Assembly: GCF_027460265.1 (NCBI RefSeq)
Contig: NZ_JAPZBC010000001.1
Location: forward strand, 2,321,501 to 2,385,500
Length of the DNA: 64,000 nucleotides
Direction of reading: 5' to 3'
From: Streptomyces sp. WMMC940
Lineage (GTDB): Bacteria; Actinomycetota; Actinomycetes; Streptomycetales; Streptomycetaceae
This document shows positions 466-17,904 of the stretch, in pieces; positions within the stretch are counted from its first letter, which is position 1, and each line of letters begins with the position of its first letter. Position numbers and translations under genes: made by a program. The notes under the pieces are model-generated. The model did not search any database. It saw only the letters and a list, made by a program, of their open reading frames with translations, and was not told the origin of the DNA.

Positions 466-3042
466 ATGGTGGAAAAGTCTGTCGAGGTCCTGACGCCCGA
501 GCCGGATGAATCGGCGCTCACCGAGCACCGAATTGACGGTCCGGCGACGGGAACGGGGACGGCAGGTGCCGAGAAGGACTTCGCCGAAGTGCTGGCCGGC
601 CTGGTCAAGGCCGAGCAGATATCCGCGGAAAGCCACTTCTTCGAGGACCTGTGCGCCAACTCGCTGGTCATGGCGCAGTTCTGTGCCCGGGTCAGGAAGC
701 GCGACGACCTTCCCTCGGTGTCGATGAAGGACATCTATCAGTACCCCACGATCCGCAGCCTGGTGACGGCGCTCGTGGCCGAAAAGCCCGCATCCGAAGC
801 CGCACCGCCACCCGAACCGGCCGAGAGCGCCGTACCCGTCAGCAGAAGGACGTACGTCCTGTGCGGAACCGCGCAGACCCTGATTTTCCTTGCCTACTGC
901 TTCGCCCTCGGCACCGTCACCGTCCGTGGCTACGAGTGGGTTTCCAGAGGCTCGGGCCTCCAGCACATCTATCTGCGGTCCATGGTCTTCGGCAGCGCCG
1001 CGATGATTGCGCTCTGCCTCTTCCCCATCGCCGCCAAGTGGATTCTGGTGGGCCGTTGGAAGCCACAGGAATTCCCTGTCTGGGGACTCGCCTATCTGCG
1101 GTTCTGGACCGTCAAGGTGCTGGTCAACGCGAACCCGATGAGATTCTACGTCGGGAATCCGCTGTACGTCCTCTATCTGCGGGCCCTCGGTGCCCGTATC
1201 GGAAAGGGCGTCACCATCCTTTCCCGGACCGTCCCGGTGTGCACCGACCTGCTCACGATCGGCGACGGCACGGTCATCCGCAAGGAGTCCTACTTCATCG
1301 GCTACCGCGCCCACGCCGGACGCATCCAGACGGGCCGCGTCACGATCGGACGGGACGCGTTCGTCGGTGAGAAGACCGTGCTCGACATCGACACGTCGAT
1401 GGGCGATCGGGCCCAACTGGGCCACACCTCCGCATTGCAGAGCGGTGAGTCGATCCCGGCCGGCGAGCACTGGCACGGCTCCCCGGCCGAGCGCACCGAC
1501 GTCGACTACGTGCGCGTGCCGGCGGCGCGTTGCAGCACGCTGCGCCGGACGCTCTTCGGGCTCGGCACCGTGCTGCAACTGTTCGTGCTGTACGTCCCGC
1601 TGATGGTCGGCGGCGCGTACCTCCTGGTGACGGAGATTCCGGCGCTGAACCAGGTACTCGGCCCCGGCGCCACGCACATCGCGTCGGCGAGCCTTTACAT
1701 CGACGCCCTGGTCCTGTCCGTCGTCCTCTTCTTCGGCTTCCTCGTCCTGGGTCTGGTCTGGCTGTTCACCGTGCCGCGGCTGCTGAGCCTGGCGATCGAG
1801 CCGGACAGGGTCTATCCGCTGTACGGCCTGCAGTACTCGCTGCACCGGCTCATCGCGCGGATGACCAACGTCAAGTTCTTCGGCTGGCTCTTCGGGGACA
1901 GCTCGTACATCGTCCACTACCTGCGCTTCCTCGGCTACGACCTGTCCAAGGTGGAGCAGACCGGGTCCAACTTCGGCACCCATGTGCAGCACGAGTCCCC
2001 CTACCTCACCACGGTGGGTACCGGAACGATGGTCGCCGACGGTCTCTCCGTCATGAACGCGGAATTCTCGGGAACGTCGTTTCGCGTCTCCCGGGCCGTC
2101 ATAGGCCCGCACAGCTTCCTCGGCAACAACATCGCCTACCCGTCCGGGGGCAGGACCGGCGAGAACACCCTGCTCGCGACGAAGGTGATGATCCCGCTCG
2201 ACGGCGAAGTCCGCGAGGACGTGGGCCTGCTGGGAGCGCCGTGCTTCGGGATCCCGCGCACCGTCGAGCGCGACACCCGCTTCGACCACCTGAGGACCGG
2301 CGAGGAGTTCCACCGCAACCTGGCCGCGAAGAACCGGTACAACCTCCGCACCATGGCGTACTGGTTGTTCGTGCGGTGGGTGCACTCGTTCGTGCTGACG
2401 GTGCTCGCTCTGGCGACGCTCGACGTGTACGGCGTGCTCGGGCATCTGGTGGTCGCGCTGTACCTCTCGATCACCCTGGCGTTCACAGCGTGCTACTTCA
2501 CCCTGTCGGAACGGCTCATCACCCGCTTCCGGCCGCTGGAACCCAAGCTGTGCTCCATCTACGACCCGTACTTCTGGTGGCACGAGCGCCTCTGGAAGGT
2601 TCCCGAGCACTACCTCAACCTCTTCAGCGGCACGCCCTACAAGACGCTGCTGTGGCGGATGCTGGGCGTGCGCATGGGCAGGCGGGTCTTCGACGACGGC
2701 GCGGGCTTCACGGAGCGGACGCTGACCACGGTCGGCGACTTCTGCACGCTGAACCAGGCGAGCAGGGTCCAGTGCCACTCGCAGGAGGACGGCACGTTCA
2801 AGTCCGACCACAGCGTCCTCGGCAACGGATGCACCCTCGGCGTCAACGCCCACGTGCACTACGGCGTGACCATGGGCGACCACGCCCAGCTCGCCGCCGA
2901 CGCCTTCCTGATGAAGGGCGAGGAAATGCCCGCGCACGCACGGTGGGTCGGGAATCCGGCCGCCGAGGCACGTGGGGCCGCCTACCGACCCGTCGCCGTG
3001 AACGGCAGCCCGCAGCCGCACGCGGCGTCCGGGCGAGGGTGA
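466..3042 (+). CDS. Carrier domain plus Pls-type membrane polymerase half (T-TM-C x3)
   Basis: The 858-residue membrane protein opens with a phosphopantetheine carrier domain (about residues 38-110; attachment serine 66 in DLCANSLVMA). It then alternates paired membrane helices (about 130-155/175-200, 365-385/430-455, 640-660/670-690) with three soluble blocks rich in hexapeptide-type turns (IGDGTVI, VTIGRDAFVGEK, LGNGCTLGVNAHVH). That is the layout of the C-terminal half of poly-epsilon-lysine synthetase and poly(diaminopropionate) synthetase. In those enzymes three tandem soluble domains surrounded by membrane helices condense free monomers onto a carrier-bound one. Here the adenylation domain is absent and encoded by the next gene, while the carrier domain is retained. 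ATG 466 is chosen because AAGGAG sits 5 bases upstream; the frame is open further back but without such a site. Fourteen bases separate it from the NRPS gene. Function is inferred from architecture and context. Confidence 0.85.
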   Translation: MVEKSVEVLTPEPDESALTEHRIDGPATGTGTAGAEKDFAEVLAGLVKAEQISAESHFFEDLCANSLVMAQFCARVRKRDDLPSVSMKDIYQYPTIRSLVTALVAEKPASEAAPPPEPAESAVPVSRRTYVLCGTAQTLIFLAYCFALGTVTVRGYEWVSRGSGLQHIYLRSMVFGSAAMIALCLFPIAAKWILVGRWKPQEFPVWGLAYLRFWTVKVLVNANPMRFYVGNPLYVLYLRALGARIGKGVTILSRTVPVCTDLLTIGDGTVIRKESYFIGYRAHAGRIQTGRVTIGRDAFVGEKTVLDIDTSMGDRAQLGHTSALQSGESIPAGEHWHGSPAERTDVDYVRVPAARCSTLRRTLFGLGTVLQLFVLYVPLMVGGAYLLVTEIPALNQVLGPGATHIASASLYIDALVLSVVLFFGFLVLGLVWLFTVPRLLSLAIEPDRVYPLYGLQYSLHRLIARMTNVKFFGWLFGDSSYIVHYLRFLGYDLSKVEQTGSNFGTHVQHESPYLTTVGTGTMVADGLSVMNAEFSGTSFRVSRAVIGPHSFLGNNIAYPSGGRTGENTLLATKVMIPLDGEVREDVGLLGAPCFGIPRTVERDTRFDHLRTGEEFHRNLAAKNRYNLRTMAYWLFVRWVHSFVLTVLALATLDVYGVLGHLVVALYLSITLAFTACYFTLSERLITRFRPLEPKLCSIYDPYFWWHERLWKVPEHYLNLFSGTPYKTLLWRMLGVRMGRRVFDDGAGFTERTLTTVGDFCTLNQASRVQCHSQEDGTFKSDHSVLGNGCTLGVNAHVHYGVTMGDHAQLAADAFLMKGEEMPAHARWVGNPAAEARGAAYRPVAVNGSPQPHAASGRG

Positions 3043-3056
3043 GGGAGGACGCACCG

Positions 3057-6000
3057 ATGGAGACGCAGACGGCGCGGACGGCAGGGTCGGCGCGGACGGA
3101 TGCCGGCCGGGAGTTCTGGCGCGAGGTACTGGCCGAGGGCGGCTTCACCGCGGTGCCGCGGTGGGTGGCGGCCGCTCCGACGCCCGACGCCGGGGCGTAC
3201 GGGACGTGCGAGGTGACCGTCCCCGGCACGCGGGCGAAGGCCCTGCGGCGACTGGCCGAGGACTCCGGCGTCGCGCTGGACGCGGTGGTCCTCGCGGCCC
3301 ACGCGCGCGTGCTGGCGGTGCTGTCGGGCGAGGACGAGGCCGTCACCGGCTGGGTTCCCGCTCCGGGTGCTCCGGCGCTGCCGTGCCGGATGACGGCCGA
3401 CGGCGCTCGTACCTGGAGGGCGTTGGTGGGCGAGGCGCACCGCGTGACCACGGGACTGCGGGCGCACCGCGACTTCCCGGTGGAGGCGCTGGCGCGCGAG
3501 CTGGGCGTGGCTGGACCGCTGTACGAGGTGGAGTTCGACCCCCACGGGATCGACGGGGACGTGGGTGGCGGTGCTGTGTTGCGTGTGTCGGTGGTGGAGG
3601 GGGTGGGCGGGGAGTTGGTGCTGGGGTTGCGGTTCCGCACCGATGCGCTGGACGGGGAGGCGGCGGGCCGGATCGCCGGCTACCACCTGGCCGCGCTGGA
3701 GCAGATGGTCGCAGGTCCGGACACGGCCCCGGCTTCCGTGGTCTCCGACCAGGAGGTGGGTTTTCAGGTGGAGGGGCTGGCGGGTCGGCGGCGGGAGTTG
3801 CCGGGGTTGCGGGTGCACGAGTTGTTCGAGGAGCGGGTGCGGATGCATCCGGATGCGGTTGCGGTGGTGCACGGGGGGCGGGAGTGGACGTACGGGGAGT
3901 TGAACGGGCGGGCGAACCGGTTGGCGCGGGCGCTGCGGGTGCGGGGTGTGGAGGGGGAGGGTGTGGTGGGGGTGGTGCTGGAGCGGAATGCGGACTGGTT
4001 GGCGTCGGTGTTGGCGGTGTTCAAGGCGGGTGGGGTGTATCTGCCGATCGAGCCGGGTTTCCCGGCGGGTCGGATCGCGGCGACGTTGTCGCGGGCGGGG
4101 TGCCGGGTGGTGGTGACGGAGTCGGGGAGTTCGGCCTCGTTGGACGAGGCGTTGGTCGCGGTCGGTGGGGTGGAGCGGCTGTTGGTGGATGTGGCGTATG
4201 CCGAGGGGCACGCTCGGGAGGATCTGGGTGTGCCGGTGGCGGCGGGGCAGTTGGCGTACATCTACTTCACCTCCGGTTCGACGGGTGAGCCGAAGGGTGC
4301 GATGTGCGAGCACGCGGGTCTGGTCAATCATCTGTTCGCGAAGATCGACGATCTGGGGATCGGTGAGGGCGGTGTGGTGGCGCAGGTCGCGCCGCAGTGC
4401 TTCGACATCTCCTTGTGGCAGTTGGTGGCGGGGTTGTTGGTGGGTGGGCGGACGGTGCTGGTGGAGCAGGACGCGGTGCTGGATGTGTCGCGGTTCCTGG
4501 ACACGGTCATCGGGGCCGGGGTGAACGTGTTGCAGGTGGTGCCGTCGTATCTGGAGGCGGTGTTGGCCGCGCTGGAGCGGGAGCCGCGGCGGCTGGGGGA
4601 GGTGCGGTGTGTGTCGGTGACGGGTGAGGCGTTGAAGCGGGAGCTGGTCGAGCGGTGGTTCGCCGCGCAGCCGGGGATCGCGCTGGTCAATGCCTATGGG
4701 CTGACGGAGACCTGTGACGACACCAACCATGAGGTGATGACGGGGGTGCCGGGGCGGGTGCTGCTGGGGCGGCCGGTGGCCAATGTGCATGTGTATGTGG
4801 TGGACGAGGGGTTGCGGCCGGTGCCGTTGGGTGCGCCGGGGGAGATCGTGTTCTCGGGGGTGTGTGTGGGGCGTGGGTATGTCAATGATCCGGAGCGGAC
4901 GGCGGCGGTGTTCGTGCCGGATCCGTTGCGGCCGGGTGAGCGGTTGTACCGCAGTGGGGATCGTGGGCGGTGGGATGTGTCGGGGAAGTTGGAGTTCCTG
5001 GGTCGGCGGGACACGCAGGTGAAGGTCCGTGGGTTCCGGATCGAGATCGGTGAGGTGGAGAACGCGCTGCTGGGTCAGGCGGGGGTGCGTGAGGGTGCGG
5101 TGGTCGCCGCGCCGGGGGCGGCGGGGACGCAGTTGGTGGCGTTCTACGGTGCGGTGGCGCCGTTGGAGAGCGGGGTGTTGGCGGCGGGGTTGGGTGCGGT
5201 GCTGCCGTCGTACATGGTGCCTTCGGTGTTCCACTGGCGGGGAGCGGGGTTGCCGCTGACCGCGAACGGCAAGGTCGACCGGAAGGCCCTGACCGCGCTC
5301 GCGGCGGGTCTCGGGAGTGCGGCCGCGGCCGGTGGTGGCGGGCGTGAGGCGCCGGCGACCGCGGCGGAACGGCGGCTGGCGGCGGCCTGGTCGGCCGTGC
5401 TCGGTGTGCCCGAGGACCGGATCGGCCGGGGCGACCACTTCTTCGACCGCGGTGGCACATCGCTGTCCGCGGTGAAACTCGCGATCGCCCTGGACCGGGC
5501 CGTCACCCTCAAGGACGTCACCCGCCACCCCGTCCTCACCGACCTCGCCGCACTCCTCGACACCGACACCGACACCACCCCCAACCAACCCGCCACGAAC
5601 GGCCCGAGCGCGCCGCGGGGCACTCGCCGCACCGCCGGAGACGGTCTGCTGGAGCGCCTGTCGGAGCCGAAGGACGCAACGGCCGGCGCCCTGGTCTGCT
5701 TCCCCTACGCGGGCGGCAACGCGGTGAACTTCCAGCCGCTGGCCCGCGCCCTGGCGGCCGACGGACCGGCCGTGTACGCCGTCGAACTCCCCGGACACGA
5801 CCTGGCGGCCGCCCGTGAACCCTTCGCCCCGCTGGAGCAGGTGGTCGAGCGGGTCGTGGACGAGATCATCGGTCTGGGCGTTTCCCGGGTGCTGCTGTGG
5901 GGCCACTCCTCCGGCACCGCTCCCGCCGTGGAGACGGCACGGAGGCTCCAGGAGCGCGGTGTCGAGGCCGAGCGGGTGTTCCTCGCCGCGCAGCTGCTCG

Positions 6001-6413
6001 GCGGGGCGGCGGAACGGCGGAGCGCCGTCGACGAGCTCACCCGCAGGAGCAACGCCGAGATCGCCGCCGGGCTGGGCGACGACCGCGGTCACACCGGACT
6101 CGGCGAACTGGACGCCCGGCGCGCCGAGCACATCGGTGCCGCCTACCGCCACGACTGCGTGGCCGCCCACGAGTACTTCGCCGGCCTCCTGGAGGCCCCG
6201 CCCGACGTGAGGCTGTCCACGCCGGTCACGGTCGTCGTGGCCGCGGACGACCCGGTCACGGCGTCCCCCGGACGGCACCGCGACTGGCGGCTGCTGGCCG
6301 AGCACGTCGATCTGTACGAACTCGCCGACGGAGGCCACTACTTCCTCCGCACCCGTCCGGCCGAGGCGGCACGAGCCGTGCTGCGCGCCGCTGCCCAGCC
6401 GGCTCCTTCCTGA
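3057..6413 (+). CDS. NRPS: C-lobe remnant, adenylation, carrier, thioesterase
   Basis: The 1118-residue single-module NRPS starts with about 220 residues resembling only the C-terminal lobe of a condensation domain; no HHxxxDG motif is present, so it cannot condense in the usual way. An adenylation domain follows (TSGSTGEPKG at about 405, FDISLW at 449, NAYGLTET, YRSGDRGRW, NGKVDRKAL). Reading the ten pocket positions against PheA gives DIWQSTADDK. The two acidic residues near the end would suit a basic side chain such as diaminopropionate. The carrier domain has serine 802 in GGTSLS. A type II-like thioesterase ends the protein (GHSSG, serine 951; late DGGHYF histidine). GAGGGAGG precedes ATG 3057. 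Context with Dap-synthesis genes and the membrane half upstream suggests it activates Dap. The adenylation part has distinctly G-ending codons unlike the flanks. Confidence 0.9.
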   Translation: METQTARTAGSARTDAGREFWREVLAEGGFTAVPRWVAAAPTPDAGAYGTCEVTVPGTRAKALRRLAEDSGVALDAVVLAAHARVLAVLSGEDEAVTGWVPAPGAPALPCRMTADGARTWRALVGEAHRVTTGLRAHRDFPVEALARELGVAGPLYEVEFDPHGIDGDVGGGAVLRVSVVEGVGGELVLGLRFRTDALDGEAAGRIAGYHLAALEQMVAGPDTAPASVVSDQEVGFQVEGLAGRRRELPGLRVHELFEERVRMHPDAVAVVHGGREWTYGELNGRANRLARALRVRGVEGEGVVGVVLERNADWLASVLAVFKAGGVYLPIEPGFPAGRIAATLSRAGCRVVVTESGSSASLDEALVAVGGVERLLVDVAYAEGHAREDLGVPVAAGQLAYIYFTSGSTGEPKGAMCEHAGLVNHLFAKIDDLGIGEGGVVAQVAPQCFDISLWQLVAGLLVGGRTVLVEQDAVLDVSRFLDTVIGAGVNVLQVVPSYLEAVLAALEREPRRLGEVRCVSVTGEALKRELVERWFAAQPGIALVNAYGLTETCDDTNHEVMTGVPGRVLLGRPVANVHVYVVDEGLRPVPLGAPGEIVFSGVCVGRGYVNDPERTAAVFVPDPLRPGERLYRSGDRGRWDVSGKLEFLGRRDTQVKVRGFRIEIGEVENALLGQAGVREGAVVAAPGAAGTQLVAFYGAVAPLESGVLAAGLGAVLPSYMVPSVFHWRGAGLPLTANGKVDRKALTALAAGLGSAAAAGGGGREAPATAAERRLAAAWSAVLGVPEDRIGRGDHFFDRGGTSLSAVKLAIALDRAVTLKDVTRHPVLTDLAALLDTDTDTTPNQPATNGPSAPRGTRRTAGDGLLERLSEPKDATAGALVCFPYAGGNAVNFQPLARALAADGPAVYAVELPGHDLAAAREPFAPLEQVVERVVDEIIGLGVSRVLLWGHSSGTAPAVETARRLQERGVEAERVFLAAQLLGGAAERRSAVDELTRRSNAEIAAGLGDDRGHTGLGELDARRAEHIGAAYRHDCVAAHEYFAGLLEAPPDVRLSTPVTVVVAADDPVTASPGRHRDWRLLAEHVDLYELADGGHYFLRTRPAEAARAVLRAAAQPAPS

Positions 6414-6435
6414 GCCGCGACCGAAAGGAACAGAA

Positions 6436-7443
6436 ATGTCGTCCTCATCCCACGCGTCACTGCTCGACGTGGAGTCGCAGCCGGGCAGGCCCCCGGTCCT
6501 GCACGTCGAGTCCCCCGGGGACGCGGCGAGCTGGGCGGCCGGGCAGCGGGACGCACTGCGCTCCCTGGTCGCCGAGCGCGGCGCGGTGCTGGTGCGCGGT
6601 CTGGGACTGCGTGAGGCGGACCAGGTCGGCGCGGTGTTCCAGCAGCTCGCCGGCGGACCGCTGATGACCGAACGGGAGGCGTTCGCCGCGCGCGAGTCGT
6701 ACCGGGACGGTGTGTACTCCTCCACGGCGTGGCCGCCGAACCAGCCGATGTGCATGCACCACGAGCTCAGCTACACGACGACGTTCCCCGGCCTGATGAT
6801 GTTCGCGTGCCTGACCGCTCCGGCCGCCGGCGGGGTCACCGGGGTCTCGGACGCCACCGCCGTGCTGGAGGCGCTGCCACCGGCGACGGTGGAACGCTTC
6901 GAGCGGGAGGGCTGGCTGCTCACCCGCAGCTACAACGACGAGATCGGCGCCTCCTGGACCGAGGCCTTCGGCACCGACGACCGGGCCGCCGTCGAGGACT
7001 ACTGCCGGGCCAACGCCATCGACCTCGCCTGGCAGGGCGACGGCGGACTGCGCACCCGCCAGCGCCGCAGCGCCGTCGTGCGCCACCCGTTGACCGGAGC
7101 ACGCTGCTGGTTCAACCAGATCGCGTTCCTCAACGAATGGACCCTCGCCCCCGAGGTCCGCGAGTACCTCGTCGACGAATACGGCGAGGACGGCCTGCCG
7201 TTCAACACCCGCTACGGCAACGGCGACCCCGTCGGCGAGGACGTCGTCCAGATCCTCAACGAGGTCTACGAGGCCCACACCGACCGCGAACCCTGGCAGC
7301 CCGGCGATCTGATGCTCGTCGACAACATCCGCACCGCCCACAGCCGCGAGCCCTACGACGGCCCCCGCGAGATCCTCGTCGGCATGGCCGAGCCGGTGTC
7401 CCTGGCCGACTGCTCGCCGACCGTCGAGGTGAGGGCGCTGTGA
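6436..7443 (+). CDS. SyrP/TauD-like Fe(II)/2-oxoglutarate oxygenase
   Basis: The 335-residue protein matches the TauD/SyrP group of non-haem iron, 2-oxoglutarate-dependent oxygenases. Visible ligands are H108 and E110 in MCMHHELSY and a distal H302 in TAHSREPYDGPREI, whose arginine would hold 2-oxoglutarate. SyrP-type members hydroxylate the beta carbon of an amino acid while it is bound to an NRPS carrier. Here the likely target is the aminoacyl group on one of the two carrier domains encoded upstream. It starts 22 bases after the NRPS gene behind AAAGGAA, and its stop codon overlaps the GTG start of the next gene, so the genes are co-transcribed. SbnB-type catalysis releases 2-oxoglutarate, which this enzyme could use. 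The exact hydroxylation site is unknown. Confidence 0.85.
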   Translation: MSSSSHASLLDVESQPGRPPVLHVESPGDAASWAAGQRDALRSLVAERGAVLVRGLGLREADQVGAVFQQLAGGPLMTEREAFAARESYRDGVYSSTAWPPNQPMCMHHELSYTTTFPGLMMFACLTAPAAGGVTGVSDATAVLEALPPATVERFEREGWLLTRSYNDEIGASWTEAFGTDDRAAVEDYCRANAIDLAWQGDGGLRTRQRRSAVVRHPLTGARCWFNQIAFLNEWTLAPEVREYLVDEYGEDGLPFNTRYGNGDPVGEDVVQILNEVYEAHTDREPWQPGDLMLVDNIRTAHSREPYDGPREILVGMAEPVSLADCSPTVEVRAL

Positions 7444-8558
7444 ACGCCGTCCGATCCGGCCGGACGGAGTCCGCCGTGGAGCCCGCGAAGCACCGGCCGT
7501 ACGGCCTGGGCGGTTCGGGCGGACCGACGGGTGCCGCGCCGTCGTTCGCGGTGATCCCGGGTGAGCAGGTGCGGCGTGCGCTGCGGGGCCACGAGAAGCG
7601 GATCGTCGAGCTCGTCGAGGCCACGTACCGGTTGCACGGAGAGGGCCGTACCGTCAACCCGCCCTCGTACTTCCTGCGCTTCCAGGACCGTCCGGCGTCG
7701 CGGATCATCGCGCTGCCGGCGTCGCTCGGCGGGCAGGCCGGCGTGGACGGCATCAAGTGGGTCTCCAGCTTCCCGGCGAACGTGGAGTCCGGTCTTCCCC
7801 GGGCCTCCGCGGTGCTGATCCTCAACGACCACGACACCGGCTACCCCTTCGCCTGCCTGGAGGGCTCGATCATCAGTGCGACCAGGACGGCCGCCTCGGC
7901 GGCGTTGGCGGCGGACCGGCTCAGCCGGGGGCGGTCGGCCGGGCGCCCGGCCCGGGTCGGGTTCTTCGGCACGGGCCTCGTCGCCCGCTACATCCACACC
8001 TTCCTCGCCGGCACCGGATGGTCCTTCGACGAGATCGGCGTCCACGACGTGGCGCCGGAGAGCGCGGCCGGGTTCCGCTGCTATCTGGAGCAGTCGGGCA
8101 CGGCGGGCCGGATCAGTGTGCACGACGACCCCGAGGAGCTGATCCGCTTCAGCGACCTCGTGGTCTTCGCGACCATCGCCACCGAGCCGCACGTCACCGA
8201 CCCGTCCTGGTTCGCGCACAACCCACTGGTGCTGCACGTGTCCCTGCGCGACCTCGCCCCGGAGGTCCTGCTCGCCTCGGCCAATGTCGTGGACGACGTC
8301 GAGCACTGCCTCAGGGCCGACACCTCCCCGCACCTGGCGGAGCGGCTGACGGGCGGCCGCGCCTTCCTGGACGGCACGCTCGACGACGTGATCGCCGGCC
8401 GGGTGACGCTCCCGGCGGACCGGCCGGTGGTCTTCTCGCCGTTCGGCCTCGGGGTGCTGGACCTCGCGGTCGGCACATGGGTCTACGACGAGGTGGCGCG
8501 CTCCGGCGGGCTGCACGTCGTCGACGGCTTCTTCCACGAACTGCGCCGGTACGGCTGA
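7440..8558 (+). CDS. SbnB-like 2,3-diaminopropionate synthase (ornithine cyclodeaminase family)
   Basis: The 372-residue member of the ornithine cyclodeaminase/mu-crystallin family carries a Rossmann motif (VGFFGTGLVARYIHTF) in its middle, after an N-terminal substrate half with GIKWVSSFP and NDHDTGYPFACLEGSIISATRTAA. SbnB enzymes oxidatively cleave N-(1-amino-1-carboxy-2-ethyl)-glutamic acid with NAD+ to give L-2,3-diaminopropionate and 2-oxoglutarate. The SbnA-like partner two positions downstream supports this specific role over cyclodeamination. GTG 7440 is chosen because it overlaps the preceding stop (GTGA) and a GAGGTGAGG site lies just upstream; the frame extends much further back inside the oxygenase gene only as a shadow. 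The first ~35 residues are Gly/Arg-rich and probably disordered. Confidence 0.9.
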   Translation: MNAVRSGRTESAVEPAKHRPYGLGGSGGPTGAAPSFAVIPGEQVRRALRGHEKRIVELVEATYRLHGEGRTVNPPSYFLRFQDRPASRIIALPASLGGQAGVDGIKWVSSFPANVESGLPRASAVLILNDHDTGYPFACLEGSIISATRTAASAALAADRLSRGRSAGRPARVGFFGTGLVARYIHTFLAGTGWSFDEIGVHDVAPESAAGFRCYLEQSGTAGRISVHDDPEELIRFSDLVVFATIATEPHVTDPSWFAHNPLVLHVSLRDLAPEVLLASANVVDDVEHCLRADTSPHLAERLTGGRAFLDGTLDDVIAGRVTLPADRPVVFSPFGLGVLDLAVGTWVYDEVARSGGLHVVDGFFHELRRYG

Positions 8559-8586
8559 GCCGCCCGGAAGCCGGTGAGGAGGCACC

Positions 8587-8691
8587 TTGCAGGACTGGTC
8601 CCCCGGAGAGATCAAGGGTCAGGTCTCCGTAGCAGCTACGGACGACTCCACGGCCGCTGACGCAGGGGCCCGACGGGCCCGCTGCAGATGA
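8587..8691 (+). CDS. Possible 34-residue peptide between sbnB-like and sbnA-like genes
   Basis: A TTG-initiated frame of 34 codons sits in the 143-base gap between the two Dap-synthesis genes. GGAGG (8578-8582) precedes it by four bases, and its TGA overlaps the AGGAGG site of the next gene, which would give translational coupling. The peptide would begin LQDWSPGEIKGQ and end ARRARCR, with a single cysteine. I recognise no family. A perfect 17-base palindrome lies inside it, so the stretch could instead be a structured leader for the next gene. The evidence is only the well-placed ribosome site, the coupling and the open frame. Confidence 0.35.
   Translation: MQDWSPGEIKGQVSVAATDDSTAADAGARRARCR
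8626..8642. repeat. Perfect 8-bp inverted repeat, 1-base centre
   Basis: TCCGTAGC and GCTACGGA flank a single A. The palindrome lies 60 bases before the sbnA-like start and could be an operator or an RNA hairpin. A second self-complementary stretch (GGGCCC GAC GGGCCC) follows at about 8668-8682. Confidence 0.6.
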
Positions 8692-8701
8692 GGAGGCCAT
8701 C

Positions 8702-9796
8702 GTGCCTGTCATATCCGTTCCCCAAGACTTCAACGAAGACGATCTCTACATCGATCTCGAGTCGATATTCGGGCGCTCGCTCTTCCTGAAGTGCGAGGGC
8801 TTCAACTTCGCCGGCTCGATCAAGCTGAAGGCCGCGATCGAGATGGTGGAGGCCGCCGAGAGGGACGGAGTCCTGACGCCGGATTCGATCCTCGTGGAGT
8901 CCTCCTCGGGCAACCTGGGCGTGGCACTGAGCATGATCGCTGCGAGCAAGGGCTACAGGTTCCTGTGCGTCACCGACTCCCGCTGCAACCTGACGACCCG
9001 GCTGATGATGGAGGCCCTGGGCAGCCAGGTGCACGTCATCGCCGGCCAGGAGGCCAACGGCAGCTTCCTGGGCGCGCGGATCGACTACCTCCGTGCGCTG
9101 TGCGCCTCCGACAGCCGCTACGTGTGGCTCAGCCAGTACACGAACCCGGGCAACTGGAAGGCGCACTACCGCAGGACGGGACCTGAGATCGCACGTCAGT
9201 TCCCCGAGCTGGACACGCTGTTCGTCGGCGCCGGGACCACCGGCACGCTGATGGGCTGCGCCCGCTTCTTCCGCGAGTGGCACCGGCCGGTGCGGATCAT
9301 CGCGGTGGACAGCGTCGGCTCCGTGTCCTTCGGCGGCGAGGCGGGGCGCAGGATGATCCCCGGACTGGGGATGAGCATCCGCCCCCCGCTGCTCGACGAG
9401 TCCTTCGTGGACGAGGTCATCCGGGTGGAGGAACGGGACACCATCCGGGCCTGCCACCGGCTGGCCCGTCGGGGGTTCCTGTTCGGGGGCTCCACCGGCA
9501 CCGTCGTCAGCGGGGCGATGGGCTGGCTCGCCGAGCACGGCGGCGACGGGCGCACGGCGGTGGCCATCGCACCCGACCTCGGCGAGCGCTACCTCGACAC
9601 GGTCTACCAGACCAACTGGCTGCACGGTCTCTACGGTGACGACGTGCTGGACCCCGAACTGGCGAACGCCGAGTCCTGGATCCTGCCCACCCCTCCCCCG
9701 CCGGCACCGTCGCCGGGCGGACGGCGTCCACACCTGCGCACGGGCGACCGCGCAGGCCGCCGGCGCCACCGGCGCAAGAGCGGCGGGGAGCCGTGA
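8702..9796 (+). CDS. SbnA-like N-(2-amino-2-carboxyethyl)-glutamate synthase (PLP)
   Basis: The 364-residue protein is a cysteine-synthase-fold PLP enzyme. K41 in FAGSIKLKAA is the expected Schiff-base lysine, SSSGNLG is the substrate loop and GAGTTGTLMG the phosphate-binding loop. SbnA homologues in staphyloferrin B synthesis replace the phosphate of O-phospho-L-serine with glutamate to form the substrate of SbnB; the adjacent SbnB-like gene argues for the same step here. GTG 8702 follows AGGAGG closely. The last ~35 residues are Pro/Arg-rich and are probably a disordered tail. It is the last gene of the operon: the next gene is convergent, with a GC-rich gap of 267 bases full of short GGCGGGCCGGGC repeats. 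Confidence 0.9.
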   Translation: MPVISVPQDFNEDDLYIDLESIFGRSLFLKCEGFNFAGSIKLKAAIEMVEAAERDGVLTPDSILVESSSGNLGVALSMIAASKGYRFLCVTDSRCNLTTRLMMEALGSQVHVIAGQEANGSFLGARIDYLRALCASDSRYVWLSQYTNPGNWKAHYRRTGPEIARQFPELDTLFVGAGTTGTLMGCARFFREWHRPVRIIAVDSVGSVSFGGEAGRRMIPGLGMSIRPPLLDESFVDEVIRVEERDTIRACHRLARRGFLFGGSTGTVVSGAMGWLAEHGGDGRTAVAIAPDLGERYLDTVYQTNWLHGLYGDDVLDPELANAESWILPTPPPPAPSPGGRRPHLRTGDRAGRRRHRRKSGGEP

Positions 9797-10063: not shown

Positions 10064-11149
10064 TCACAGAGGCGCCAGCCGGTGGCCCAGCCCGGGCAGG
10101 TCCGGGAGCTGGACAAGGCCCGTGCCGTTCGTCGCCGCGAAGGTCTCCGGGGCGAGCGGCTCCTGTTCGACGAGCAGGGGGCCGACCAGGTCGGGCGGGA
10201 CCGTGGCGTGCGGGAGGGCCGCGGAGAGATGGGCGGCGGCGAGGGTGGCGACGCCGAGCTCCGGCATGCTGCCGATCTTCACGGACAGGCCGGCGGCCTC
10301 GGCGACGGCGGCGATCTGCCTCGCCCGGTGGAGACCACCGACCTTCAGGATCTTGATGTTGAGCACATCGGCGGCGCCGCGGCGGACGATCTCCAGCGCG
10401 TCGTGGAGCGACTGGAGCGACTCGTCGGCCATCACCCGTGCGCCGCCCTGGGCGCGCAGCGCGGCGAGCCCGGCCAGGTCCCAGCGGGGCAGAGGCTGTT
10501 CGACGAGGTCGAGTCCTGCGTCGGCGAGGCGCGCGACCGTGCGGAGCGCGCCGCCGGGCGCGTACCCCTCGTTGGCGTCGAGGGAGAGCGATACGGAGTC
10601 GGCGACGGACTTCCGTACGGCGGCGACGAGTTCGACGTCCCGATCGGGGTCCTCGCCACCCTTGAGCTTGATGTGGGGGAAGCCGCGCTCGGCGTACTGC
10701 GCGGCCTCCTCGACGCTCTCCGCGATGCTGCCGAGCCCGACGACCCACGTGGTGGGCACACGATGTGTGACGGCCCCGCCCAGGAGGAAGTGCGCGGGCC
10801 AGCCCGCGGCGCGGGCGGCCAGGTCGTGGAGGGCGAGGTCGAGCGCCGCCTTGGCCAGGTGCTGGCCGCGGATCGCGGCGTCCATGGCCGCGTGCGCCCC
10901 GGCCAGGTCGCGCGGGTCGCGGCCGATGAGGGCGGGCGCTGCGTGCTCGGTGAGGGCGGCCCGCAGCCCGGCCAGGGTCTCCCCGGTGTACGCGGTCATC
11001 GGCGAGGCCTCGCCGAAGCCCGACGCCCCTTCGGTGGTGCGTACCTCCACCAGCAGGCTGACGAGTTCGGGGCTGGTGCCGCTGCTGATCGCGAACGGGC
11101 GTCGGTAGGGGGCGCGGACCACTCGGGTGTGGAACGAGGCGATCTTCAA
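10064..11149 (-). CDS. Enolase-superfamily enzyme (muconate-cycloisomerase/epimerase type)
   Basis: The 361-residue protein has the N-terminal capping domain and barrel of the mandelate racemase/muconate lactonising group. Visible catalytic features are a KxK motif (HIKLKGG, about residue 160), metal ligands in SLDANEGY, VEQPL and MADESL, and a second barrel lysine in NIKILKVGG. This pattern fits dipeptide epimerases, N-acyl amino acid racemases or cycloisomerases. The C-terminal DxD specificity motif of Ala-Glu epimerases is not obvious, so substrate is unknown. The start is a TTG with AAGGAG about ten bases upstream. A palindromic operator lies 27 bases upstream of the start, shared with other units of this block. 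The gene is transcribed alone, toward the NRPS operon. Confidence 0.85.
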   Translation of the reverse strand: MKIASFHTRVVRAPYRRPFAISSGTSPELVSLLVEVRTTEGASGFGEASPMTAYTGETLAGLRAALTEHAAPALIGRDPRDLAGAHAAMDAAIRGQHLAKAALDLALHDLAARAAGWPAHFLLGGAVTHRVPTTWVVGLGSIAESVEEAAQYAERGFPHIKLKGGEDPDRDVELVAAVRKSVADSVSLSLDANEGYAPGGALRTVARLADAGLDLVEQPLPRWDLAGLAALRAQGGARVMADESLQSLHDALEIVRRGAADVLNIKILKVGGLHRARQIAAVAEAAGLSVKIGSMPELGVATLAAAHLSAALPHATVPPDLVGPLLVEQEPLAPETFAATNGTGLVQLPDLPGLGHRLAPL

Positions 11150-11175
11150 GCCGGCTCAGCTCCTTCGCAGGCGTC

Positions 11176-11195
11176 GTTTCGGTCCGGACCGTAAC
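11176..11195. promoter_or_regulatory. Predicted operator 1 (GTTTCGGTCC/GGACCGTAAC)
   Basis: A 20-bp palindrome with one mismatched pair lies just upstream of the enolase-family gene. Its core TCGGTCCGGACCG recurs in three other intergenic sites of this block, at 12686, 16573 and 21122. Confidence 0.7.
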
Positions 11196-11323
11196 TTCCC
11201 TCACGTCGGCCGTACGCAAACGGACGCGGGCGGAGGCCGTGGCCGCGCCCGGTCCACCGCCCCCGGACCGCACCATCCGCCGGCGCACCGCCTTCGAACC
11301 GCACCGCCCGGCAGCCCACCGGC

Positions 11324-12556
11324 CTACAGCCGTACCCGGTACACGATCGGCGGCCGGCCCGTCTGCCCCTCCTGGCGGATTCCGGTCGGGACGGCCACGC
11401 CCGCCCGCTCCAGCCGTTTGAGTATCCGGCGCGCCGTGCGCTGCTGCACCGACAGGTGCTCGGCGACCGCGTGCGCCGTGAGTCCCTCTCCGCGGTCCCC
11501 GGAGGCGAGGTCTCGCAGCCGGTCCAGGGTCTGGGGGCTGATGCCGGTCCGCCGCGCCAGCAGCGCCGCTCCCCCGGGCGTGGCGGTCTCGCCGTCGGGG
11601 ACCCCCGCGGCGCCGTCGATGACGATGTCGACGTCGTCGGTCATCGACACGACGCCCGCGGCGGCCCCGACGGACCGGGCCCGGTTCACCGCGCGGCGCG
11701 CCAGTGCCTCCGCCTCGGCGGCGGTGCGCCCGAGGCCGAAGCCGATGTGTGCGGTGCCGTGCCGGGCGGCGAGACCGTCGAGGAAGGGGATGCGGGTGAA
11801 CCGGTCCGTCGCCTTCTCGAGCACCCCCCGGGTGGTGACGACGAGCCTCCGGCCGTCGGGCAGGGCGGCGAGGCTGCCGCCGAGGATCCTCACGTCGTCG
11901 GCGAGCCGGTCGTCCGCGCCGGGCAGGTCGATGACCCCGAGGGCGACCTGGGCGTCGCCGCTGTGCCGTCCCGCCGTGGCGAGGGCGAGGGCCTGGAGGG
12001 TCGCCAGGATCGAGTGCCGCGAGGGTGCCAGCCGTACCGTGTGGGTCCGGTGCTCCAGGACGTGGAAGGCCGAGCCGAGACAGGTGATCGCGACCCTCGA
12101 CCTCCCGGTGTCGCGCGCCTCCAGATGGAAGTCGACGAGGTCCTGGGAGGTGAGTCCGGGCCGGTGGGGCAGGACCCGTATGTGCTCGGTGGGGAGCTTC
12201 GCCTCCGTGAGCGTCTCCAGCACCTCGTCGCGGCGCAGGGTGTCGATGGAGACGCGGGAGACGTCGTGGCCGAGTCGGAGCAGTTCGACGAGCACCCGCA
12301 GCAGGGTGGCGCCGCTGTAGGGCACGTACATCGCGGGGCGGTCGAGGACGCCGGCCGCCTCGGCCAGGCTGTGCGGCACGACCCCGGTGAACAGCAGGGC
12401 GTCCGCGGCGGACCCGGCGCCGGTGACGACGTCCGTCGTCTCCTCCTCGTGGCGGTACGGGAGCGGCAGCAACCGGCCCGCGCCCGCCTGACCGCCGACC
12501 GCGACCACCTTGCGGACCAGGTCCTCGGGGCCTATCACGCCGACCGTGAGCGGCAT
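11324..12556 (-). CDS. Winged-helix transcriptional regulator with unrecognised sensor domain
   Basis: The 410-residue protein ends in a winged helix (about residues 340-410: AHAVAEHLSVQQRTARRILKRLERAGV, then GRPPIVYRVRL). The first ~300 residues form one or two domains I do not recognise firmly. A stretch TAHIGFGLGRTAAEAEALARRAVNRAR resembles the degenerate cyclase-like domains of some sensory regulators. ATG 12556 is preceded by GGAG about nine bases away; the frame is open further upstream but without such support. It stands beside the divergent DegT gene with a variant of the block's palindrome between them, so it is the natural candidate for the regulator reading those sites. The assignment as local regulator is inferred. 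Confidence 0.75.
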   Translation of the reverse strand: MPLTVGVIGPEDLVRKVVAVGGQAGAGRLLPLPYRHEEETTDVVTGAGSAADALLFTGVVPHSLAEAAGVLDRPAMYVPYSGATLLRVLVELLRLGHDVSRVSIDTLRRDEVLETLTEAKLPTEHIRVLPHRPGLTSQDLVDFHLEARDTGRSRVAITCLGSAFHVLEHRTHTVRLAPSRHSILATLQALALATAGRHSGDAQVALGVIDLPGADDRLADDVRILGGSLAALPDGRRLVVTTRGVLEKATDRFTRIPFLDGLAARHGTAHIGFGLGRTAAEAEALARRAVNRARSVGAAAGVVSMTDDVDIVIDGAAGVPDGETATPGGAALLARRTGISPQTLDRLRDLASGDRGEGLTAHAVAEHLSVQQRTARRILKRLERAGVAVPTGIRQEGQTGRPPIVYRVRL

Positions 12557-12685
12557 GGCCCGGTCTCCGTTCTGCTGAGGTCGCGCCGGCGACCTGCGGG
12601 GGGTGTGACGCACGTACCGACGGGGCCGGGGACGCGTTCCGCGGGCGGTTCGCACGTGATTGACGGCCGACCACGGGAGTCCTAG

Positions 12686-12705
12686 GTTTCGGCCCAGGCC
12701 ATAAT
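12686..12705. promoter_or_regulatory. Predicted operator 2, degenerate copy (GTTTCGGCCC/AGGCCATAAT)
   Basis: Fifteen of 20 positions match operator 1. It lies between the divergent regulator and aminotransferase genes, and its right end (CATAAT) could double as a -10 box for the aminotransferase operon. Confidence 0.5.
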
Positions 12706-12733
12706 CGTGTGCTGCCGAGAGGATAATCCCCCG

Positions 12734-13867
12734 ATGCCGCGACGGGAAATGCCACTGCCCACAGTTCTCGAACCGCGCGGCAGGACCTTCGGGGAGGAGG
12801 AGCGCGCCGCGGTGCTGCGGGTCCTCGACTCGGCGGTCCTGTGCGGGGCGTTCGGCCGGGAGGCCAGGGCGCTGGAGACGGAGATGGCGGCCTTGTACGG
12901 GCGCGCCGAGGCCGTCTCGTCCAGTTCCGGCACGGCCGCGCTGCATCTCGCGGTCGCGGCCGCCGGGGTGGGCCCCGGCGACGAGGTCGTCACCACCCCG
13001 ATCTCTGACTTCGGCACGGTCGCGCCGGTCCTCGCCCAGGGCGGCCGGGTGGTGTTCGCGGACGTGCGGGCGGACGACGGCAATCTCGACCCGGAGGCCG
13101 TGGAGGCGGCGATCACTCCGCGCACCCGGGCGGTCGTGGCGGTCCATCTCTTCGGCGGTGCCGCGGACGTGGTCCGGCTGCGGGAGATCTGCGACCGGCA
13201 CGGGCTGCCACTGATCGAGGACTGCGCGCAGGCGTGGCTGGGCGAGGACGAGAACGGCCGGCTGCTCGGCACCGTCGGCGACATCGCCTGTTTCAGCCTC
13301 CAGCAGTACAAGCACATCACGGCGGGTGACGGCGGTCTGAGCATCACGGACGACCCGGAACTGGCGCGCAGGATGCGACTGTTCATGGACAAGGGCTGGG
13401 ACCGCGCGGAGGGCCGCATCCACCGCACGATGGGGCTGAACTACCGGATGACGGAGCTCGTCGCCGCGGTCGCCCGGGTCCAGCTGACCCGGGTCGCCGA
13501 GGTCGTGCGGGTGCGGCGGGAGCGCGCCGAGCGGTTCGCGGCGGCCGTCGAGGAGCTCGGGCCGTCCTCGCAGGTCCGTCTGCCGTCCCGGCGGACCGGA
13601 CACGCCTGGTGGGTGATGCCGCTGCTCGTGGACGACAACTCCCGCTGGGCGAAGGACCTGCGGGCCGCGGGCGTACCGGCGCTGCCGGGCTATCTGGAAC
13701 GGCCGCTGTACGCCAATCCGGCACTGTCCGGCCATCCGGCGGGCCCGTGTCCCCGGGCGGAGAAGCTGATCGACCGTACGCTGCTGGTGCTTCAGTGGAA
13801 CGAGGCCTACACCGAGGACGACGTCGACCGGATCGCCCGGGCGCTGGGCGAGGTGGGAGCGCGATGA
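12734..13867 (+). CDS. DegT/DnrJ/EryC1-family PLP aminotransferase
   Basis: The 377-residue protein is a fold-type I PLP enzyme of the DegT family. Visible features are SSSSGTAALHLAV for the cofactor pocket, PLIEDCAQAWLG with the PLP-ring aspartate, and K193 in QQYKHITAGDGG as the Schiff-base lysine. Such enzymes aminate keto sugars, cyclitols or related carbonyl compounds, usually with glutamate or glutamine. The start is taken at ATG 12734 (GAGAGG about 11 bases upstream); ATG 12749 is an alternative. Its stop overlaps the next ATG (ATGA), so it heads a three-gene operon with two amidohydrolase-family genes. Its target here is unknown. Confidence 0.85.
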   Translation: MPRREMPLPTVLEPRGRTFGEEERAAVLRVLDSAVLCGAFGREARALETEMAALYGRAEAVSSSSGTAALHLAVAAAGVGPGDEVVTTPISDFGTVAPVLAQGGRVVFADVRADDGNLDPEAVEAAITPRTRAVVAVHLFGGAADVVRLREICDRHGLPLIEDCAQAWLGEDENGRLLGTVGDIACFSLQQYKHITAGDGGLSITDDPELARRMRLFMDKGWDRAEGRIHRTMGLNYRMTELVAAVARVQLTRVAEVVRVRRERAERFAAAVEELGPSSQVRLPSRRTGHAWWVMPLLVDDNSRWAKDLRAAGVPALPGYLERPLYANPALSGHPAGPCPRAEKLIDRTLLVLQWNEAYTEDDVDRIARALGEVGAR

Positions 13868-14640
13868 GCACGAGCACGACGGCCGACTACGACCGGCCGC
13901 CCGCGTACGACTGGCTGACGCCTTCGCCACGGGAGCAGGTCGGCTGGGACGTGGACGTGCTGTACGGGACTTGGCCCCGGCACCATCGGGACGTCACGCT
14001 CACGGAGGTGCGCCGGCGCCTCGACCGCTCCCCCGTGTGCGGCGCCCTCGCACTGTCCACCCGCGGGCCGCTCTTCGACGACCGGGCGGGCAACGAGGAG
14101 ACTCTGCGCGACCTCGCGGACTGCCCGGAGCTGCTGCCGGTGGGCACCGTCGACGTCCGGGACGCGATGACCGCCGAGGACCGGCTGGACGAGCTGGCGG
14201 CCGCCGGAGTGCGCTTCCTGCGGCTGTTCACCGTAGAGCAGGCCGCCGAGCCGGGCTTCCCCGGCTACCGGCACGTCGTCGACCTGGCCCTGGCGCGCGG
14301 GATGGTGCTGCTCCACGACGGCGACCCGCGCCGCTACGGCCCGCCCCTGATGGACCGCGGGGTCGATGTGGTCTTCCTGGACCTGCACGCGTATCTGCTG
14401 GCGGACTTCCTGCTGATGGCGCGTGAGGAGCCGGGGTTCCGGGTGACGACACGGATGCTGTCGGGTCCCGACTCCGTCGAGCGAGTCGTGCACTCGGTGG
14501 GGGCGCGCCATCTGGTCTTCGGCTCGCGCACCCCGTTCATGGACATCTCGCCGCTGACGCTGCGGCTGCGCTACGCGGACATCTCCGACGACGAGCGCGA
14601 CGCGATCGCCACCAGGAACATCGAGGAGCTGCTGAGCTGA
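13864..14640 (+). CDS. Degenerate amidohydrolase-family protein (probable pseudoenzyme)
   Basis: The 258-residue protein follows the layout of the next gene's product, an amidohydrolase of the Amidohydro-rel/ACMSD type, but its metal sites look lost. Where the partner has VDVHAHVGRW this one has WDVDVLYGTWP, so both histidines of the HxH motif are replaced. LLLHTWG corresponds to VLLHDGDP, and the catalytic FGTDAT corresponds to FGSRTP. The barrel-like spacing, with FLRLF and HLVFGSRTPFMDIS, is kept. It starts inside the aminotransferase stop (ATGA) and ends overlapping the next start by one base, so it is made in step with both. It could be a structural or regulatory partner of the intact paralogue. 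I did not detect frameshifts. Confidence 0.7.
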   Translation: MSTSTTADYDRPPAYDWLTPSPREQVGWDVDVLYGTWPRHHRDVTLTEVRRRLDRSPVCGALALSTRGPLFDDRAGNEETLRDLADCPELLPVGTVDVRDAMTAEDRLDELAAAGVRFLRLFTVEQAAEPGFPGYRHVVDLALARGMVLLHDGDPRRYGPPLMDRGVDVVFLDLHAYLLADFLLMAREEPGFRVTTRMLSGPDSVERVVHSVGARHLVFGSRTPFMDISPLTLRLRYADISDDERDAIATRNIEELLS

Positions 14641-15380
14641 TGCCGATCGTCGACGTGCACGCCCATGTGGGCCGCTGGCAGTTCCACCTCACCTGCGGCG
14701 ACGCGGACGAGAACCTGCGTCTGATGGACCGGTACGGCATCGACGTCCAACTGGTGTCGGCCTCCGAGGCGGTGGTGTACGACGCGGTAGCGGGCAACGC
14801 CGCGCTGATGAAGGAGCTGGCGTCCCGGCCGCGCCTGTACGGGTATGCCGTGGTGAACCCGAACCGGATCGAGGAGAGCGCCGCGGACCTGGGCCGCTGT
14901 CTGGACTCCGGGCGGTTCGTCGGCGCGAAGATCCACACGCACTATCCGGGGCGGCTGCCCGGCTCGCGGGAGATGGCCGAGGCGTTCGACGTGGTCGCCG
15001 AGGCGGGCGTACCGCTGCTGCTGCACACCTGGGGGCGGGAGGTCACCCAGCTGCCCGACATGGTGGCCGCGCGCCCGGGACTGCGAGTCGTCATGGGCCA
15101 CGCGGGCGGGGACGCGTGGCGGGAGGCGGCGCACGCCGCCGCTTCGTGCGAGGGACTGTACCTGGAGCACTGCCGTACCGCCGCCGACGCGGGCCGGGTC
15201 GCCTACGCGCGCGAGGCCGGGGTGCCGGTGGAGCGGATGCTGTTCGGCACGGACGCGACGCTGATCGACCCCTGCTGGTCGCTGGGTGTGCTGCGGGACG
15301 CCGGGTTCACCCCGGCCGAGCTGGACCGGGTGCTGTGGCGGAACGCCGCGGAGCTGTTCGGCCTCGAGGTCCCCGTCTGA
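14640..15380 (+). CDS. Amidohydrolase-family metal-dependent hydrolase/decarboxylase
   Basis: The 246-residue TIM-barrel protein keeps the metal signature: VDVHAHVGRW near the N-terminus, KIHTHYPG with a central histidine, LLLHTWG, VMGHAGG and FGTDAT with the catalytic aspartate. These are the ligands of the Amidohydrolase_2 group, which includes ACMSD-type decarboxylases and lactone hydrolases. At 246 residues it is short for the group, so the insertions seen in ACMSD are missing. It overlaps the preceding gene by one base and closes the operon. Which carboxylate, lactone or amide it acts on cannot be told. Confidence 0.8.
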   Translation: MPIVDVHAHVGRWQFHLTCGDADENLRLMDRYGIDVQLVSASEAVVYDAVAGNAALMKELASRPRLYGYAVVNPNRIEESAADLGRCLDSGRFVGAKIHTHYPGRLPGSREMAEAFDVVAEAGVPLLLHTWGREVTQLPDMVAARPGLRVVMGHAGGDAWREAAHAAASCEGLYLEHCRTAADAGRVAYAREAGVPVERMLFGTDATLIDPCWSLGVLRDAGFTPAELDRVLWRNAAELFGLEVPV

Positions 15381-15560
15381 CGGCGCAGGGCGCCCGGGAG
15401 GGCGGGCCCGGGGCCGGTTCCCGTCCTGCTCGCCGGGCCCGACCCGCCGGCCCGATCCACTGCCGTCCGCCGTACCGCTCCTCTCCCTGGCCGTCCCGCC
15501 TGCCGAAGAACCTCCGTACACGGCCTGGCGCTCCCCCGGCCGCCGGGCGGCCCGGCACAC

Positions 15561-16529: not shown

Positions 16530-16572
16530 GGGCGTTCTCTCCTGTCTGTCGCGGTCGTCCCCGCTACGCTAG

Positions 16573-16596
16573 CCTTTACGGTCCGGACCGTAAAGG
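16573..16596. promoter_or_regulatory. Predicted operator 3, perfect 24-bp palindrome
   Basis: CCTTTACGGTCC is followed directly by its exact reverse complement GGACCGTAAAGG. It is the best copy of the block's shared element. It lies 44 bases before the DapA-like start and 17 before the LLM start, so it probably controls both; its right arm supplies the AAAGGAAGG ribosome-site region of the LLM gene. Confidence 0.8.
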
Positions 16597-16612
16597 AAGG
16601 GATTCCACTCCG

Positions 16613-17581: not shown

Positions 17582-17904
17582 CCCGCGCAGCCGCGCCCGA
17601 CGACGGAAGAGCCGCGTGCGACGGCGCACCGGACGGGCCGGTCCGGCGCGGTCACGGCCGGGAGCCGGTCAGCAGTGCGTCCGTGGTGCCGTGCAGATCC
17701 GCGTGCGGTCCGGCTCGTCCAGGTCGGCCGGCAGCACCCGGCGCAGTCCGGTGCGGGGACCGAGCAGGACGGCGCCCGAACCGCAGGCGATGCGGTTGTG
17801 CGCCCGGGCTCGGTGAGTGACGAGGCACCCGAGGTGACGCACCGTCATACGGGCACCGGGCCGGGACAGCGGGCGGCGGCCTCGGCGATCGTCGCCGGCG
17901 CGGG
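17582..17904. other. Gap between convergent genes, no confident gene
   Basis: This stretch separates the LLM gene from the end of the transporter operon. A 59-codon frame on the minus strand (17669-17848) has no convincing ribosome site. Short GC-rich inverted repeats are present, but no strong terminator was identified. Confidence 0.4.

Follow-up and report, generated by a model that had tools for sequence, protein, structure and literature searches.

We analysed a window of 64,000 nucleotides from Streptomyces sp. WMMC940 (contig NZ_JAPZBC010000001.1), in which five genes on the + strand, here called orfA to orfE, form a compact cassette. The first gene, orfA (466-3042), encodes a protein of 858 residues with a carrier domain (PP-binding, residues 46-103) and a Pls/PosA membrane condensing domain (TIGR02353, residues 132-832). 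The product of orfB (3057-6413, 1118 residues) comprises a remnant of a condensation (C) domain, an adenylation (A) domain, a carrier or thiolation (T) domain and a thioesterase (TE). A TauD-family Fe(II)/2-oxoglutarate oxygenase of 335 residues is encoded by orfC (6436-7443; Pfam TauD, 150.2 bits), and orfD (7440-8558) and orfE (8702-9796) encode 2,3-diaminopropionate (Dap) biosynthesis proteins of the SbnB and SbnA types, respectively. The gaps between the genes are 14, 22, -4, and 143 bp. On the upstream side, the nearest called gene stops about 860 bp before orfA (locus L007); the cassette ends at 9796 and the next gene, at 10064-11149, lies on the opposite strand. Gene calls came from a codon-usage-based caller, which misses some genes. 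An earlier note on this DNA had described the same five co-directional genes (a carrier plus membrane protein, an A-T-TE protein, an oxygenase, SbnB and SbnA) and two carrier domains; all five are found at these positions, with one PP-binding domain in OrfA and one in OrfB.

OrfA matches TIGR02353, the NCBI model for Pls/PosA synthetases, with 817.9 bits against a cut-off of 423.1, and covers the complete profile (1-695 of 695). Domains of this type are in print for polymers (PMC4668381, PMC10522769; here and below, statements on published systems follow excerpts of the cited papers). The profile search, which the earlier note had set as the deciding test for its assignment of the membrane protein, thus places OrfA inside the Pls/PosA family. 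Hydropathy indicates transmembrane-like stretches near residues 131-149, 168-196, 363-381, 415-433, and 634-675. Ser66 of the carrier is invariant, as are many core residues, in 45 aligned relatives, five of which are single-chain proteins. When the OrfA family profile was compared with PDB sequences, matches were limited to the carrier and to hexapeptide-like stretches. Pls/PosA proteins exhibit A, T, and membrane domains in one polypeptide, whereas OrfA has no A domain of its own and the A domain lies in a separate gene. Several relatives exhibit tandem carriers, two in L112, L118, L127, and L008, three in L144, and four in L129, an arrangement that would suit repeated condensation. In L129 (2737-9539), the four carriers are near-identical, and the TIGR02353 protein adjoins a TauD protein, an acyl-ligase-like protein, and a small carrier protein. 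L008 (7938-14065 of G000:C1:965000-984999) is the window genome's own T-T-TIGR02353 paralogue, of 970 residues; it adjoins a P450 and an acyltransferase/DUF418-type membrane protein, and genes of this last family are found in 14 of the 90 loci compared.

OrfB shows the Pfam domains AMP-binding, PP-binding, and Thioesterase. Its Condensation match (profile positions 184-277 of 456) scores 22.7 bits, below the threshold of 30.6, and an HHxxxDG motif was looked for and not found; the remnant match is present in 70 of the 72 loci with an A-T gene. Of 77 orfB A domains, including that of the window, 76 share the specificity code DIWSSTADDK (positions by GrsA numbering); the one exception, L118, has a single substitution. 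In five single-chain A-T-TIGR02353 proteins from the same genus (L120-L124), the code is DFETLSVVTK, a Pls-type code that OrfB does not share. These proteins are 50-52% identical to OrfA in the matched part, and in a tree they stand apart from the split group, with the deep order unfixed and one long branch (can_L113). The A domain of OrfB is only 33-34% identical to theirs, compared with 63% identity to one in a Kitasatospora NRPS (nonribosomal peptide synthetase) region without an annotated Pls protein. The earlier description of a split Pls is therefore not retained: the A-T half belongs to another lineage, carries another code, and is part of a set that is also found without TIGR02353. Judging by these relationships, the A-T protein OrfB is not a broken-off half of Pls.

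Pls/PosA synthetases are expected to be free of a thioesterase, whereas orfB encodes one. It is present in 47 of the 72 loci with an A-T gene and absent from the other 25; GxSxG is found in 48 of 49 TE regions of relatives. The gain of a thioesterase proposed previously is thus correct for orfB, but it does not define the system, and the TE appears to be optional in the cassette. At L089 (12550-15160, Kutzneria sp. 744), tblastn finds A and T, yet gene calling did not return the A-T gene as a single open reading frame (ORF), possibly because of a frameshift.

Residues H108, E110, H302, and R311 of OrfC, the first three of which are the metal-binding residues, are invariant in 47 aligned relatives. 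OrfC is 34% identical to the dapdiamide oxygenase DdaC over 306 residues, with an hhalign probability of 100 over 290 columns (TauD profile). OrfD scores 404.1 bits against the SbnB equivalog TIGR03944 (cut-off 326.9) and OrfE 379.3 bits against the SbnA equivalog TIGR03945 (cut-off 349.95). Both proteins exceed their cut-offs and their genes are adjacent, as in SbnA/SbnB Dap biosynthesis, which supports the Dap supply pair of the earlier note. At five loci (L137, L138, L141, L147, and L160), SbnB/SbnA is replaced beside A-T/TauD by a set of kinase, lyase, and SbnA-like genes, which may supply 2,3-diaminobutyrate; the accompanying A codes are DIWSSTADDK (L137, L138), DIWTATCDDK (L141, L160), and DIWSATCDDK (L147). 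In Kibdelosporangium (L118, 6384-9497), two extra cysteine-synthase-like genes and an exporter-like gene precede the cassette. In Streptomyces scabies, an SbnB homologue whose gene is close to both an NRPS gene and an sbnA homologue is reported among proteins found with potato microtubers (PMC11479980).

The conservation of the gene set was assessed in 80 loci, the best of 172 orfA relatives by similarity, a sample that favours the cassette. Among the 75 loci whose sequence extends 8 kb or more beyond the membrane domain, 71 keep A, T, TauD, SbnB, and SbnA, so the association lies far beyond chance. Of the remaining four, L041 gave no SbnB match, L114 and L116 contain TIGR02353 alone, and L119 has only TauD. 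As a unit, the five genes seem self-sufficient, because the commonest further neighbour family occurs in 24 of the 90 loci compared and is confined to one TE-less Streptomyces subgroup.

OrfA homologues are numerous, with 4852 proteins at E<=1e-50 among 8000 candidates scored. Among 295 genomes of the same genus, that of the window included, 107 have an orfA match (E<=1e-100) and 167 a TauD match (E<=1e-60); few candidates were scored per genome (three for orfA, seven for TauD), so copies were missed. A TauD gene lies within 8 kb of 109 of the 129 compared TIGR02353 (orfA) matches, in at least 95 of the 295 genomes, and the cassette is thus common in the genus. Conversely, 32 TauD matches have no compared orfA match nearby, in part owing to contig ends, omitted matches, and unscored candidates. 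This count took in 129 of the 133 listed orfA matches, with four fragments omitted, and 141 of at least 150 listed TauD matches, with nine at <=50% identity omitted. The omitted fragments of G139 and of G260 (contig C499) share contigs with TauD matches counted as not near, and a TauD gene of G272 (at about 8.0 Mb) that was counted likewise does adjoin a TIGR02353 gene (L132); the adjacency figures are hence low estimates. The protein is rare in the phylum as a whole: at E<=1e-150, an orfA match is found in 5 of 396 genomes, and 2 of the 236 genera have one. Besides Streptomyces, the cassette occurs in Prauserella, Pseudonocardia, Kutzneria, and Kibdelosporangium.

Several natural fusions join the components. 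In L162 (G105), a single ORF of 2286 residues encodes carrier-TIGR02353-A-carrier-TauD and is followed by SbnB and SbnA, both above their cut-offs; the A domain is fused to the membrane domain, but in an order other than that of Pls/PosA. In L166 (G293), an A-T-TE-TauD ORF of 1370 residues lies beside a T-TIGR02353 gene, followed again by SbnB and SbnA. L141, L142, and L160 have an A-T-TauD fusion in a stretch that contains no TIGR02353. TauD is thus fused to A-T in five separate ORFs. These fusions constitute the strongest sequence evidence that OrfA, OrfB, and OrfC would work as one machine and that the oxygenase would act on the cargo of the OrfB carrier, and they bear out the inclusion of the oxygenase in the machine by the earlier note.

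The A-T/TauD/SbnB/SbnA set also occurs without TIGR02353 in the examined stretches of clusters resembling those of NRPSs or polyketide synthases (PKSs), at L133-L136, L142, L161, and L163. It is a portable subcluster, which in the cassette has been joined to a T-TIGR02353 gene. In L135 (8331-15551) and L136 (7526-14681), the set comes after ketosynthase-like genes and is followed by a gene of 534 codons that looks phosphoglycerate dehydrogenase-like by eye and perhaps contributes to phosphoserine supply. The window genome itself has a second copy of the set (L130, 10234-16788) without a TIGR02353 gene in the stretch, whereas G272 (L132, 4764-14199) exhibits one in the corresponding position, between the SbnA and A-T genes. 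Between this copy (compared region 11992-15616 of L130, G000:C1:7225000-7244000) and the window operon, 4.9 Mb away, 1712 bases of the A domain are identical (window 3531-5242), and the TauD core (window 6807-7256) is 99-100% identical in 150-base steps. Outside these two regions, identity is 54-80% in most steps. This pattern suggests a recent gene conversion between the two operons, although the sequence alone also allows an assembly error. As the A domain and the TauD core are the homogenised parts, the two copies may act on the same substrate.

With regard to the origin of the trans arrangement, Pseudonocardia provides possible traces. In P. xinjiangensis (L113), the cassette lies about 570 bp downstream of a gene for a single-chain A-T-TIGR02353 protein whose A domain has lost the usual A3 motif and the C-terminal subdomain. 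On a plasmid of P. autotrophica (L144), an A domain below the cut-off (260.6 vs 317.4 bits) is followed by three carriers, TIGR02353, and then TauD, and another Pseudonocardia plasmid (L145) encodes the A remnant in an ORF of its own. A search of the L144 and L145 plasmid records, which did not extend to the chromosomes, gave no orfB match at E<=1e-60. The A-T/TauD/Sbn set probably joined an ancestral single-chain A-T-TIGR02353 synthetase. As soon as an A-T protein was able to charge the carrier of this cis-acting enzyme in trans, the enzyme's own A domain may have decayed and been lost.

Three known systems are informative for comparison. The poly-Dap synthetase PDAPs of Streptomyces albulus PD-1 is described as one ORF with A, carrier, and membrane domains and no TE; it makes poly-Dap without an oxygenase, and the Dap genes NjxA/NjxB are not close to it (PMC4668381). 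The window system resembles PDAPs with NjxA/NjxB in its carrier and membrane domain and in its supply of Dap by a cysteine-synthase/ornithine-cyclodeaminase pair. Going by the published description, it is set apart by a separate A-T protein of another lineage and by the additional TauD and TE. PosA of Acinetobacter baumannii, a delta-poly-L-ornithine synthetase, is a single-chain A-T-membrane domain protein (PMC10522769). It shares the condensing domain with OrfA; its description gives a single chain, ornithine, and no oxygenase, in contrast to the A-T protein in trans and the TauD of the window. The single-chain proteins of L120-L124 likewise have their own A domain, and three of the five lie beside an aspartokinase-like and an aminotransferase-like gene (named by eye).

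The dapdiamide operon on plasmid P4 of Pantoea agglomerans (L167) is annotated with sbnA, sbnB, TauD, NRPS, alpha/beta hydrolase, ddaF, ddaG, and asnB genes. DdaA to DdaD are 42, 45, 34, and 33% identical to OrfE, OrfD, OrfC, and OrfB, respectively. DdaD tethers N-beta-fumaramoyl-Dap, and DdaC epoxidises this substrate on the carrier (PMC12451424). Like a DdaC-type enzyme, OrfC is homologous over its length and keeps the metal-binding residues. In contrast, the codes of DdaD (DSESIGVINK) and OrfB differ, and the dapdiamide operon has no TIGR02353 among its annotated genes, a separate TE-like protein, and ddaF/ddaG. By tblastn (E<=1e-5), no DdaF or DdaG match was found in the window, L007, the 80 loci, or five further loci; DdaI had no match in the window or the 80 loci, and DdaH one short match, in L058. 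Since the codes differ and DdaF/DdaG matches are absent, the substrate is probably Dap itself or a Dap peptide. By this analogy, the window system would work like DdaC/DdaD, yet it is not a dapdiamide pathway. The S. coelicolor SCO6429-38 'dipeptide' cluster, the ashimides, and enamidonin/olenamidonin, considered as leads to a known product, were set aside, as the literature excerpts gave no link to the gene set.

This gene content is most economically read as a Pls-type synthetase, fed in trans, that would make an oxidised Dap oligomer, and we consider it reasonably probable that the five genes form a cassette for such a chain. OrfD and OrfE would make Dap, which the A domain of OrfB would adenylate and load onto the OrfB carrier and, because OrfA has no A domain, probably also onto the OrfA carrier in trans. 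OrfC would oxidise carrier-bound Dap, a Dap dipeptide, or an oligomer, a placement suggested by the fusions and by DdaC/DdaD. The membrane domain of OrfA would form the amide bonds, as is established for Pls-type synthetases, and the chain may exit through the membrane. The TE, absent in many relatives, could edit or release stalled or oxidised Dap.

A number of observations weigh against an oxidised Dap oligomer. Twenty of the 129 TIGR02353 matches have no listed TauD nearby, and T-TIGR02353 genes also occur without the cassette (L114, L116, and the window genome's own paralogue L008). The A-T/TauD/SbnB/SbnA quartet also appears to serve NRPS/PKS-like clusters, hence its presence alone does not imply a polymer. 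L137 and L138 share the A code but have a different amino-acid supply set. The OrfB code matches neither the single-chain Pls-type code nor that of DdaD, and a search of the literature for a substrate of DIWSSTADDK found nothing; the loading of Dap by OrfB therefore rests on the gene neighbours, and reading the substrate from published codes was dropped for want of a match. Oxidised free Dap would, moreover, be unstable: on chemical reasoning, C-hydroxylation of free Dap at either carbon gives an unstable N,O-acetal. The hydroxylated product of the earlier note is thus one option among several and no likelier than desaturation or the oxidation of an acylated Dap.

The same genes could instead yield a discrete small molecule, with OrfA making one or two amide bonds and the product being an oxidised Dap di- or tripeptide, perhaps a dapdiamide-like antimetabolite. 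The quartet is indeed found in discrete-product clusters and in the dapdiamide operon, and the window has a TE, as do 47 of 72 A-T loci. However, the condensing domain is a full-length TIGR02353, of a type published for polymers (PMC4668381, PMC10522769), many loci lack the TE, and the tandem carriers of relatives suit repeated condensation; we consider such a product possible, though on the unlikely side. It is quite unlikely that the loaded unit is a Dap derivative, for example N-acyl-Dap, or another 2,3-diamino acid. DdaD provides a precedent for the former (PMC12451424), and related A-T/TauD genes lie beside the kinase/lyase/SbnA-like set in L137, L138, L141, L147, and L160, but SbnB and SbnA are adjacent and above their cut-offs in the window, and DdaF, DdaG, and DdaI have no match in the window or the 80 loci, with the single short DdaH match of L058. 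A plain, unoxidised short Dap oligomer, with OrfC acting elsewhere or in editing only, would resemble the poly-Dap that PDAPs makes without an oxygenase (PMC4668381). This appears highly improbable, as 71 of 75 loci keep TauD, five ORFs join it to A-T, and the catalytic triad of OrfC is invariant in 47 relatives.

In the literature, Pls-type enzymes appear as homopolymer synthetases made of one chain, and the way in which the membrane domain links residues and terminates is presented as open (PMC4668381, PMC10522769). Compared with the known polymer systems, the trans-fed synthetase proposed here would differ in its trans loading, its oxygenase, and its optional TE, while sharing the condensing domain. 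A description of the cassette was sought in the open-access literature and none was found. With loading (OrfB), oxidation (OrfC), and condensation (OrfA) distributed over three proteins, the condensing domain could be assayed with carrier-bound substrates supplied in trans, for which the natural fusions provide controls. More tentatively, these loci may represent a widespread class in which a Pls-type polymerase that lost its own A domain is supplied in trans by a mobile module for making, loading and oxidising Dap, and produces a backbone-oxidised (N-acyl hemiaminal or dehydro) Dap oligomer; if so, this would be a polymer chemistry not met in the literature searched.

The genes downstream of the cassette (10064-17581), including those for an enolase-superfamily enzyme, a regulator-like protein, a DegT aminotransferase, and an amidohydrolase, were considered as pathway members and rejected. 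The gene at 10064-11149 adjoins the cassette in one of the 80 loci (L041). Of five downstream genes tested across these loci, two accompany the cassette at L041 and nowhere else, and the other three were not found beside it in any of the 80. The region at 10064-19619 appears to be a locus of its own; it encodes the enolase-superfamily enzyme, the DegT aminotransferase, the amidohydrolase, a permease, and proteins of DHDPS-like and luciferase-like type.

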